A stretch of DNA of 64,000 nt from Myxococcales bacterium (GTDB lineage: Bacteria > Myxococcota > Myxococcia > Myxococcales > JAKAPL01): assembly GCA_021807105.1 (NCBI GenBank), contig JAKAPL010000007.1, positions 1 through 64,000 of the forward strand. Reading direction: 5' to 3'. Both the position numbers and the translations under genes were made by a program. How positions within the stretch are numbered: the stretch's first letter is position 1; each line of letters starts with the position of its first letter. The notes beneath the pieces were generated by a model, which searched no databases, was not told the origin of the DNA, and worked only from the letters and a program-made list of their open reading frames with translations. Shown piece after piece: positions 11,318-56,333 of the stretch.

Positions 11318-12853
11318 ATGGCCGGTCTGGTACGGTCCTTGCTGTCTCCCGCCTCCGTGGCTTCGCCGATCCAGATGCTCCACGATGGCTGGAGCCGGCT
11401 CGAGCGCTCCCTGCGGGCGCGCATCCTCGTCCCCACGAGCGTCCTCTTCACCGCGACCCTCGCGACCATGGTCGCCGCCGCCGCCGCGATCCATGGCGCC
11501 CAGATCGAGGAGGCGGCCCGCGACCACGCCGAGCTCTCCGCGAACCTGATCGCCGGCACCGTCTCCGCCGCGCTCGCCGACGCGGGCGGCGAGGGCGCCG
11601 GCGACGAGCTCTCGTCCGCGATGGCGGTGATTCGCCGGCACCACGAAGACATCAGTTGGATCTCGTTCCTCGCCCCCGGGGGCGAGGTCGTCCTGTCGAC
11701 CCGGCCGGAGCTGCTCGGCTCGTTCCCCTGGCCAGCCGGGAGCCTCGCCGCGAAGCTCGTGGTCCAGCGCGACACGTACGCCGTCCTCCGTCCGGTCCTG
11801 GTCCCGCCCTGCCGCGAGTGCAGCGCGAGGCCCGTGCTGGCGGGTTGGCTGGAGCTCCGCTTCTCCCGCGCCGCCTCCCGGGCGGCCCACGAGCGGCTCG
11901 ATCGCACGCTGCTGCTCACCGCGGTCCCCTCGCTCCTGCTCCTGCTCGCCATCGCCTGGTGGCTGCTCGGACGCGAGGCGATTCGCCCCCTGCGGCGGCT
12001 GGTCTCCGTCATGCGGACCGCGGAGGAAGGGAGCTACGACGTGTTCGCGGACGAGGGGCGGCCCGACGAGCTGGGCCTCGCCGCGCGGGGCTTCGACGCG
12101 GTGCTCGCGACCTTGCGCAAGAGCCAGGACGAGCTGACGGCGGTCTACCGGGAGCGGCTCGAACGCGCGGACCGCTTCGCGCTCGTCGGCGAGGTCGCGA
12201 CCGGGCTCGCCCACGAGATCAAGAACCCGCTCGCCGGCCTCTCCGGCGCCCTGGAGCTGCTCGCCGAGGACCTCGCCACCGTCCCCGCGCACGCCGAGGT
12301 CGTCGCCGAGATGCGCCGCCAGGTCGCCCGGCTCGCGGGCACGATGGAAGCCCTGCTCGGCTTCGCGCGTCCCGGCAAGCCGCGGATGGAGCGGATCCTC
12401 GTCAACGCCTCGCTCGCCCGGGCGCTCTTCCTCGTCGAGCACCAGGGCGCCTTCTCGCGCATCCGCGTCGTGCGCTCCCTCGCGGCGGACCTCCCGCCGG
12501 TCTCCGGCGACGCCGGGCAGCTCGAACAGGTCTTCTTGAACCTCTGCCTCAACGCCTGCCAGGCGATGGCGCGGGACGGCGGCACGCTGACCGTGCGGAC
12601 GCGGGCAAGGGACGGCGGCGTGGTGGTCGAGCTCGCGGACACGGGGCCCGGCATCCCGGTCGCCGCTCGCCCGCGGATCTTCCAGCCGTTCTTCACGACC
12701 CGCGAGAAGGGCAACGGCCTCGGCCTCGCCATCTCGGAGCGGATCGTGAGCGAGCACGGCGGCCGGATCGCCTTCATCTGCCCCCCCGCGGGCGGCACGC
12801 TCTTCACGGTCACGCTCCCCGCCGCCGCGGGGGGGTTACGGGAGGCGGCCTAG
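11318..12853 (+). CDS. membrane sensor histidine kinase
   Basis: HAMP region, H-box ATGLAHEIKNPLAGLSGALELL, N/G boxes NLCLNACQAM, DTGPGIP, GNGLGLAI. Confidence 0.92.
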   Translation: MAGLVRSLLSPASVASPIQMLHDGWSRLERSLRARILVPTSVLFTATLATMVAAAAAIHGAQIEEAARDHAELSANLIAGTVSAALADAGGEGAGDELSSAMAVIRRHHEDISWISFLAPGGEVVLSTRPELLGSFPWPAGSLAAKLVVQRDTYAVLRPVLVPPCRECSARPVLAGWLELRFSRAASRAAHERLDRTLLLTAVPSLLLLLAIAWWLLGREAIRPLRRLVSVMRTAEEGSYDVFADEGRPDELGLAARGFDAVLATLRKSQDELTAVYRERLERADRFALVGEVATGLAHEIKNPLAGLSGALELLAEDLATVPAHAEVVAEMRRQVARLAGTMEALLGFARPGKPRMERILVNASLARALFLVEHQGAFSRIRVVRSLAADLPPVSGDAGQLEQVFLNLCLNACQAMARDGGTLTVRTRARDGGVVVELADTGPGIPVAARPRIFQPFFTTREKGNGLGLAISERIVSEHGGRIAFICPPAGGTLFTVTLPAAAGGLREAA

Positions 12854-13035
12854 GAGGCTGGTGTGAAATGGCTGCCTGCTGCGAAAGCCGATCCCTTCGC
12901 TGCGACGGGCGGCCTCGTCGCTTCGCTGCTCAACGTACTGCAAAGAGTACGTCTGACGCTGCTCACTCCTCGGGCGCCCGTCTCGCCTCGGTCTCGGTTT
13001 TCTCGCGACGGCACCCATTCACACCAGCCTCCTAG
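12850..13035 (+). repeat. ~186-bp palindromic interspersed repeat, copy 1
   Basis: Bounded by CTAGGAGGCTGGTGTGAAATGG ... CCATTCACACCAGCCTCCTAG terminal inverted repeats; central hairpin ACGTACT-gcaaag-AGTACGT; near-identical to 55417-55604 in opposite orientation. Confidence 0.9.
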
Positions 13036-13095: not shown

Positions 13096-14445
13096 GTGAA
13101 CGCGCGCGTGCTCGTCGTCGACGACGAGAAGCTCATCCGCTGGTCCGTCGGCGAGCGGCTCGACCGCAGCGGCCACGAGGTCTGGACGGCCGAGTCCGGC
13201 GAGCGGGCGTTGGAGATGCTCGCCGAATGCCGCCCCGACGTGATGCTCCTCGACGTGCGGCTCGGGCAGCTCGACGGCCTGGAGACGCTCCGGCGCGCGC
13301 TCGTCTCCCGGCCGGACCTGGTCGTCGTGATGATGTCCGCCCACGGCTCGATCGACGTCGCCGTCGAGGCGATGAAGCACGGGGCCGTGGACTTCCTCGT
13401 CAAGCCCTTCACCCTGGAGACGCTCGACGCCGCGGTGGATCGCGCCGCCGCCGCCGCCGCGGTCCGCCGGCAGATGTCGTCCGCGGTGGAGCTCTCCCCC
13501 GGCGGCGCGGACGCCCTCATCGGCGATTCGGCCGCCCTGCGCGAGATCCGCGAGGTCGTCACGCGGCTCGCCTCGAGCAAGACGACCACCGTCCTCATCG
13601 AGGGCGAGAGCGGGTCGGGCAAGGAGGTCGTCGCCCGCGCCATCCACTTCGGCAGCCCGCGCGCGGGCAAGCCCTTCCTCGAGGTCAACTGCGCCGCCCT
13701 CCCCGAATCGCTGCTCGAATCCGAGCTGTTCGGCCACGAGCGCGGGGCCTTCACCGACGCGCGGATCCAGAAGCGCGGCCTCGTCGAGCTGGCCGACGGC
13801 GGCTCGGTGATGCTCGACGAGATCGGCGACCTCCCGGCGGGCGGCCAGGCGAAGCTGCTCCGCCTGCTGGAGGCGAAGAGCTTCCGGCGGGTCGGCGGCG
13901 TGCAGGAGCTGTACTCGGACACCCGGGTCATCGCGGCGACCAACGCCGATCTCGAGCGGCGCGTCGCGGACGGGACTTTCCGGGCCGACCTCTTCTTCCG
14001 GCTCGCCGTCGTGCGGATCATCGTGCCCCCCTTGCGCGACCGGAGGGACGACGTCCCGGCGCTCGCCGCTTTCTTCGTCGCCCGTTACAACCAGGAGACG
14101 AACGGGTCGGCGCGGGGCATCTCCCCCGAGGCCATCGAGCGGCTCGTCTCGTACCACTGGCCCGGCAACGTCCGCGAGCTGCGCAACGTGATCGAGCGCG
14201 CCTTCGCGCTCCACCCCGACCTGGATGAGATCCGCCCCGAGCACCTGCCCCCCACCCTCCACGCGCGCGACCCCGCGGCGTCGCCGGGCGGGCACGAGAG
14301 CCCGCTGACGCTGGAGGCGGCCGAGCGGAGGATGATCCACGACGCCCTCGGCCGCGCCCACGGCAACCGCAGCCAGGCCGCCCGCCTCCTCGGCGTGACC
14401 CGGGACACCCTGCGCTACCGGTTGAAGAAGTTCGGGATGGGCTGA
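13096..14445 (+). CDS. sigma-54-dependent NtrC/AtoC-family response regulator
   Basis: Receiver domain (VLVVDDEKLIRWSV, DVMLLDVRLGQLDG), AAA+ GESGSGKE, GAFTDA, C-terminal Fis-type HTH (NRSQAARLLGVTRDTLRYRLKK). Confidence 0.95.
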   Translation: MNARVLVVDDEKLIRWSVGERLDRSGHEVWTAESGERALEMLAECRPDVMLLDVRLGQLDGLETLRRALVSRPDLVVVMMSAHGSIDVAVEAMKHGAVDFLVKPFTLETLDAAVDRAAAAAAVRRQMSSAVELSPGGADALIGDSAALREIREVVTRLASSKTTTVLIEGESGSGKEVVARAIHFGSPRAGKPFLEVNCAALPESLLESELFGHERGAFTDARIQKRGLVELADGGSVMLDEIGDLPAGGQAKLLRLLEAKSFRRVGGVQELYSDTRVIAATNADLERRVADGTFRADLFFRLAVVRIIVPPLRDRRDDVPALAAFFVARYNQETNGSARGISPEAIERLVSYHWPGNVRELRNVIERAFALHPDLDEIRPEHLPPTLHARDPAASPGGHESPLTLEAAERRMIHDALGRAHGNRSQAARLLGVTRDTLRYRLKKFGMG

Positions 14446-25102: not shown

Positions 25103-25357
25103 TCAGCCCGTCTTATTCACGGTCCGGCTGCTGCGGCGTCCGATTCCGCGCCTCCCGAAGGGGGGCCTTGCCACCCCTACAACGACATGGGGGGTGTGCT
25201 CGCTCCGTACCTCCTCGCGGGGGGCTTGCCACCCTCCAAACGACTTCGGGGGGAGGTGCTTTACGCGACGCCTCGTCGGTCGTCGCTCTCGCTTGCCCTT
25301 CTCGGCTCGCGGTCGAAAAACGCCTCGCTACGCCGTACCGTGAATAAGACGGGCTGA
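25103..25357 (+). mobile_element. MITE-like non-autonomous insertion (255 bp) with 21-bp perfect terminal inverted repeats
   Basis: TCAGCCCGTCTTATTCACGGT at left and ACCGTGAATAAGACGGGCTGA at right; no transposase; splits the sua5 reading frame. Confidence 0.85.
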
Positions 25358-55416: not shown

Positions 55417-55604
55417 CTAGGAGGCTAATGTGAAATGGGTGCCGTCGCGAGAAAACCGAGACCTAAGGCGAGACGGGCGCCCGAGGAGTGAACCGCGTCA
55501 AACGTACTCTTTGCAGTACGTTTTGCAGCGAAGCGACGAGGCCGCCCGTCGCGAGCGAAGGGATCGGCTTTCGCAGCAGGCAGCCATTTCACGCGAGCCT
55601 CCTA
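55417..55604 (-). repeat. ~188-bp palindromic interspersed repeat, copy 2 (inverted relative to copy 1)
   Basis: Reverse complement closely matches 12850-13035 end to end; same terminal inverted repeats and central ACGTACT/AGTACGT hairpin. Confidence 0.9.
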
Positions 55605-56333
55605 CTGGCAGTACGAGGGGCCGAGGCCGCTCGGCGTGCACGTTTGTTGGTCGGGACAGGTCCCGCCGTCGTCGCAAAGATCCAGGCAGTAGCCCGGGCC
55701 GCCGGGATTCTCGGCGGCGCAGACCTGGTGCGGGCCGCAGAGCTCGCTGCGCGAAACGACGGCGGTCCAGCAGGGGACCGAGTTGGGCGTCAACGGCGGT
55801 TCGCACGAGGAGAGCTCGCCTCTCCGAGCGCCGGAGGGTACGCAGAGGCCGCCGAAGACGGGCACGCACGTCCCCGCGTCGCCGTCGCCCGCCGTGCAGG
55901 TGCCGCCATCCGGGTTGCACCTGACTGCCGTGCAGCTCCCGCCGCGGCAGCCCTCGTCGATGGTACAGTCCTGGTAGCTGTTGCAGCTCGCGCCCAGGCC
56001 GCCGCAGGTCGGCCCCCCGCTCGAAGTGCTGCCGCCGGTCGTCCCAGTGCCGCTGGTCGAGCCCGAGCCGGTCCCGCTCGTCGTCCCCGAGGTCCCCCCG
56101 CTGCTCGAACCGCCGATGGGCCCGCCGCTGGAGCTGCTCGATGTCCCGCCGCTGGAGCTGCTCGATGTCCCGCCGCTGGAGCTGCTCGATGTCCCGCCGC
56201 TGGACGCCTGGGAGCAGGGATCGTGCGATCCGCCGTCCACCTGGCAGTAGCTCTCGCCGGGGTCGTCGTAGGCCTCGACGCTCACGAGGCAACCGGCGAG
56301 CAGCGGCAGCACGGCGAGGAGAGAGAGACGCAT
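55602..56333 (-). CDS. Cys-rich lipoprotein with Ser/Gly/Thr linker
   Basis: LLAGC lipobox; (GGTSSSSS)n linker; Cys-rich C-terminal region ending PSYCQ; TAG stop lies in the repeat boundary. Confidence 0.75.
   Translation of the reverse strand: MRLSLLAVLPLLAGCLVSVEAYDDPGESYCQVDGGSHDPCSQASSGGTSSSSSGGTSSSSSGGTSSSSSGGPIGGSSSGGTSGTTSGTGSGSTSGTGTTGGSTSSGGPTCGGLGASCNSYQDCTIDEGCRGGSCTAVRCNPDGGTCTAGDGDAGTCVPVFGGLCVPSGARRGELSSCEPPLTPNSVPCWTAVVSRSELCGPHQVCAAENPGGPGYCLDLCDDGGTCPDQQTCTPSGLGPSYCQ
56121..56192 (+). repeat. 24-bp tandem repeat x3 (CCCGCCGCTGGAGCTGCTCGATGT) in lipoprotein linker
   Basis: Three consecutive identical 24-bp units plus a partial fourth. Confidence 0.9.

Follow-up and report, generated by a model that had tools for sequence, protein, structure and literature searches.

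MITEs are usually seen as decayed transposons, which are defined by their ends and whose interior is neutral. To our knowledge, each of the families ERIC (RU-1), RUP and NEMIS/Correia is bound to one type of end. These families share many features with MITE1, the element that we describe here from a 64,000-nucleotide stretch of DNA (the window) of a soil-dwelling Myxococcales bacterium (the host): they are short (about 100-170 bp), non-coding, palindromic, TA-flanked and intergenic, reach high copy numbers and are moved in trans. Unlike them, MITE1 has a core that is found between several unrelated terminal repeats and shows covariation between bacterial families. By sequence, the element was compared with these families through Rfam. 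For QMITE2 of Coxiella burnetii, the part of the publication drawn on here reports a length of about 190 bp, terminal repeats with a core, a fold over the whole length (reported as -113) and about 78 copies (PMC10969869). MITE1 resembles it in size, in its combination of terminal repeats and core, in the full-length fold and in copy number, whereas QMITE2 has direct repeats of 7-9 bp, and that part of the publication describes no conserved core with exchanged ends (PMC10969869). REP, BIME and REPIN sequences are likewise dispersed palindromic repeats at gene ends, from which MITE1 differs by its long terminal repeats and putatively duplicated target and by having neither REP units nor a cognate RAYT. 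A literature search for MITEs of Myxococcota or for IS1182 MITEs found no relevant report. We consider it probable (roughly 0.75) that MITE1 is a MITE mobilized by a transposase acting in trans, and that it inserts at CTAG in a manner that often restores stop codons and contains an old core found across different ends.

The initial annotation of the window had placed two near-identical palindromic units at 12850-13035 and 55417-55604. Both lie where it put them and share 93% identity across positions 12-196 of a 206-base query. With the flanking TA excluded, however, they span 12853-13032 (copy 1, + strand) and 55420-55602 (copy 2, - strand). MITE1 thus measures ~180 bp, with 19-bp terminal inverted repeats (GGAGGCTnnnGTGAAATGG) and flanking TA inside CTAG, and it contains no open reading frame, in agreement with its description as non-coding. 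The bounding inverted repeats that had been claimed are bipartite (GGAGGCT-nnn-GTGAAATGG), and their motif AGGAGGCTNNNGTGAAATGG occurs four times in the window when up to 3 mismatches are allowed, compared with an expectation of 0.05. Copy 1 starts with the left terminal repeat GGAGGCTGGTGTGAAATGG (12853-12871, + strand) and ends with the right one (13014-13032, - strand), in which one base is deleted and which scores 2 mismatches. Between them lies a hairpin core (12872-13013, + strand; core length about 140-142 nt) that is conserved in other Myxococcota. The inner complementary arms GACGGGCG...CGCCCGTC are present as annotated, and so is the central stem-loop ACGTACT-gcaaag-AGTACGT (12933-12952, + strand), whose helix covaries across cores and whose stem is extended in copy 2 (55500-55523). 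Putative target duplications flank copy 1 at 12851-12852 and at 13033-13034, the latter followed by G; the flanking TA dinucleotides of copy 2 lie at 55418-55419 and 55603-55604. Copy 1, which matches a covariance model of the core with 146.8 bits at 12871-13018, is located between a histidine kinase gene (11318-12853, + strand), the last base of which falls exactly at the element, and an NtrC-type response regulator gene downstream (13096-14445, + strand). Copy 2 (129.5 bits) adjoins a predicted lipoprotein-like open reading frame (55602-56333, - strand) that ends exactly at the element and has no match in NCBIfam.

Only within the window is MITE1 a two-copy element, as the initial annotation had it. 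The host genome, an assembly of 3.76 Mb in 129 contigs that is 95% complete, contains many copies, and a blastn search of Myxococcota found the core in 26 of 195 genomes. With 83+75 = 158 terminal repeats (up to 2 mismatches; control 0) and 44+50 = about 94 cores (up to 1 mismatch; control 0), roughly 90-100 copies are present genome-wide. Among the 66 two-ended copies that were rebuilt from fetched loci, 43 measure 180-184 bp and the remainder about 75 to 450 bp. The longer variants mostly contain a second element, MITE2, nested at CTTAG in the core with this pentamer on both sides; the length classes of MITE1 arise from internal deletion and nesting. Because MITE2 is found in both relative orientations at this one site in the core, at least two independent insertions must have occurred. 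The terminal inverted repeats, the TA/CTAG flanks, the many copies in several length classes and the lack of an open reading frame support the initial suggestion of a MITE, and the window element is neither restricted to two copies nor matched by an Rfam family or an IS end.

MITE1 is preceded by CTA and followed by TAG; over both sides of the 66 two-ended copies, conservation is 85% for C, 84% for T and 92% for A. As CTAG is itself palindromic, a 2-bp TA duplication and a 4-bp CTAG duplication look alike, and no wider palindromic target was seen around CTAG in these copies. The tetramer is rare in the window, with 12 occurrences found versus about 160 expected. TTAG and CTAA are likewise depleted there. 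Of the 30 MITE1 elements with both flanks, 15 have a coding frame that terminates right at the junction, its TAG stop codon consisting of the flanking TA and the first G of the element; among empty CTAG sites, 6 of 29 coincide with a frame end in this way. Both window copies obey this rule: the TA at 12851-12852 completes the stop of the histidine kinase frame (11318-12853), and on the - strand the TA at 55603-55604 completes that of the frame at 55602-56333. When intergenic CTAG sites alone are taken for comparison, the enrichment falls short of significance (p = 0.08), and the placement at stop codons may therefore result from the choice of target combined with selection against disrupted genes.

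We suggest that the transposase of another element would recognize both terminal repeats of MITE1 and place the unit within CTAG, so that TA (or CTAG) flanks it on either side. Such insertions would often hit a TAG stop codon and restore it, thereby keeping the gene intact, since CTAG is very rare and often located at stop codons and since the element begins with G. The transposase specific for the host's own ends would then have been lost, or be missing from the assembly. None of the terminal repeats read in the host genome leads into a transposase gene, and the search for a full-length IS or REP-associated transposase with the ends of the window element found no partner in this incomplete assembly.

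TA flanks at CTAG fit the target choice of IS630, and one IS630 gene is present in the host genome, so mobilization by IS630 with TA duplication might be considered. We regard this as very improbable, because the sole IS630 of the host has unrelated ends rather than the MITE1 terminal repeats, and because IS630 is lacking in 10 of the 12 other element-bearing genomes; G053, which was recently active, and the closed G022 are among those without it. The host gene in question (G000:C8:721-1155, locus L048) appears intact and lies near a contig end. Two further groups of transposases were rejected as well. The distribution of Y1 (RAYT) transposases does not follow that of the element, as they match in genomes with and without it and give only one weak match in the host; together with the lack of REP units, this leaves the BIME- or REP-type mobility proposed in the initial annotation unsupported. 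DDE transposases of the PF01609 (DDE_Tnp_1) type were dismissed as a common mobilizer, as the closed genome G022 has none and those of G053 lack the ends.

The core of MITE1 is strongly structured. As RNA, copy 1 folds into one long imperfect hairpin of -100.3 kcal/mol versus -64.3 kcal/mol for shuffled sequences (z -8.5), and copy 2 folded as DNA gives z -5.7, which bears out the palindromic character noted before. A covariance analysis of collected cores, as the initial annotation had proposed, revealed strong compensatory changes: on 31 diverse cores, a 31-pair hairpin has 96.3% of its cells paired, and 16 pairs show double changes. These amount to 114 double-change cells; shuffles yield 32 and slid structures no more than 23, and this excess indicates that the fold is maintained. 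Its upkeep could be due to selection on an RNA, to selection on a DNA hairpin, or to correction of one arm by the other, and the covariation would be expected from the latter two as well as from an RNA.

The covariation could also point to a hairpin that the host keeps at gene ends as a structured RNA or cis-regulatory element, such as an RNase III processing site or an attenuator between operon genes, and whose transposon-like ends are a relic. The position of the window copies between operon genes is in line with this, as is the finding that two genera carry elements with different outer arms at one and the same junction, where an acyl-CoA synthetase-like gene meets livH. We nevertheless judge such a function of the element improbable, as it occupies about 90 unrelated sites in the host genome while being absent from the nearest relatives, and as the nested insertions speak for recent mobility. 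No Rfam family reaches its gathering score for the element, and a scan of the copy 1 region found neither an intrinsic terminator nor a sigma-70 promoter signal. The strongly covarying hairpin, which no RNA family matches, may or may not be a domesticated structured RNA as suggested earlier.

Homologues of the core are present in several families of Myxococcota (26 of 195 genomes, blastn) and are 61-78% identical to the cores of the host, whereas the host's two nearest relatives, included in the same search, lack it. The host's terminal repeat is absent from these two relatives and from the others of a 60-genome sample, in which a single match with one mismatch was judged to be chance; no such repeat was found in viral contigs. 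A scan of 84,980 species for the core pattern found it in Myxococcales/Anaeromyxobacter-type MAGs, and scattered matches in other phyla look like chance. The homologous elements are 188-192 bp long and TA-flanked, and they are bounded by other terminal repeats, namely GTGCYCCgnCCCAGGCA, GTGCTCCGACCGGGGTG, GTACCTCGACCGCGGC, GAGAGCCGAACCGCTT and GAGCGCCGAACAGGTTA, and further GAGCGGTTTTCAGTTGC, GAGCAGTTTCCTCTTGA and AGCGCATCCCACAACC. In a comparison of the cores, these group largely by genome or close relatives. The ends of the host type, of a second type in genome G051, of MITE2 and of the rest agree at 3-7 of 19 positions, which is chance level. The remaining ends, of the TA-G type, grade into each other (14 of 19 between G121 and G041, with G149 intermediate), and some of the end differences may therefore reflect gradual divergence instead of switching.

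Two observations concern individual loci. At the acyl-CoA synthetase-like gene/livH junction, where core-bearing elements with different outer arms were seen in two genera (L096 and L098, in G037 and G081, and L234 in G079), either inheritance in place with a renewed stem or repeated insertion could account for the pattern. In G025, the locus L230:509-941 contains four perfect tandem 108-bp units that correspond to the middle of the core and lack terminal repeats, and other solo cores lie near TAG stops at L217, L251 and L253.

Transposases with matching ends could be named for two of the related types. The IS1182 elements of Myxococcota (NF033551, E 2.4e-92) insert at CTAG, as the MITE does, with ends that read TA followed by GAGCACCGA..., and in genome G121 the IS1182 end CTAGAGCGCCGAACAGGTTTAG coincides with the MITE end CTAGAGCGCCGAACAGGTTA, a link that relies on transposase fragments of about 28 aa at contig ends. 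An IS-end match is absent for the window's own ends, yet a related type carries those of IS1182; in the host genome itself, no match to IS1182 was found. The MITE differs from IS1182 in having no transposase and in its core, for which a comparison with IS1182 internal DNA gave no sequence match, and a derivation of the core from the IS1182 interior was consequently rejected. IS1272, a member of the IS1182 family, is reported to replace stem-loops upon insertion without target duplication (PMC5678879), unlike the MITE with its putative duplication. As a speculation, replacement of this kind might be how hairpins and transposon ends come to be recombined. In G053 (L186/L194), an IS1182 copy is inserted at the centre of the 16-bp perfect palindrome GGCCGCCTAGGCGGCC.

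The second type is MITE2, whose ends (CCCGTCTTATTCACGG) occur 179+182 times in the host genome, corresponding to roughly 180 copies. One 247-bp copy with these IS1380-type ends lies in the window (25107-25353, + strand). Where MITE2 is nested in MITE1, it has a 5-bp CTTAG/CTAAG duplication. The two IS1380 genes (NF033539) of the host lie between ends that match those of MITE2 and are unrelated to those of the window's 186-bp element; from this sequence match, the resident IS1380 transposon is clearly the predicted partner of MITE2. The core of the short MITE2 variant is related to that of MITE1: the 174-bp form is matched from end to end by the core covariance model (57.1 bits, E 1.5e-11), a second match reaches 48.4 bits (E 1.5e-9; both E-values are rough), and the 174-bp form aligns colinearly with the core at a score of 65, whereas none of 400 shuffles exceeded 42. 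For long MITE2 variants, the model gives weak scores or no match. As the core of the 174-bp form is nearer to cores at L100 and L161, which belong to other genomes, than to the host's own MITE1, local gene conversion is not the cause of the resemblance. The occurrence of homologous cores between IS1182-type and IS1380 ends implies that a conserved hairpin core is carried by the ends of at least two transposase families.

These data tentatively suggest, at somewhat less than even odds, that the core is a persistent unit which has repeatedly gained the ends of unrelated transposases (IS1182-type, IS1380-type and at least two more), with selection acting on the fold and not on the ends. An ordinary MITE family that co-diverges with its own IS1182-like transposase lineage, and whose core is kept similar by recency, copying and hairpin-guided correction of the arms, seems less likely. 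In favour of co-divergence, all TA-G-type ends begin with G, have CTAG as their target and grade into one another in similarity, and IS1182 of these genomes also inserts at CTAG. Co-divergence does not readily account for the host, second G051 and MITE2 ends, which agree only at chance level around cores that are still 61-78% identical, nor for the IS1380 ends and 5-bp duplication of MITE2.

In the reading that we favour, the core would be an old module that spread between transposon ends, those of IS1182 type in one genome, of IS1380 type in the host and of other types elsewhere. Its fold would most likely be under selection because the folded form aids movement or makes the presence of the element between genes harmless. 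A structured interior that stays conserved as the ends change opens the question of what the core of a MITE does. The placement at stop codons, in turn, shows how a repeat can grow to about a hundred copies where genes are densely packed and still leave them unbroken.
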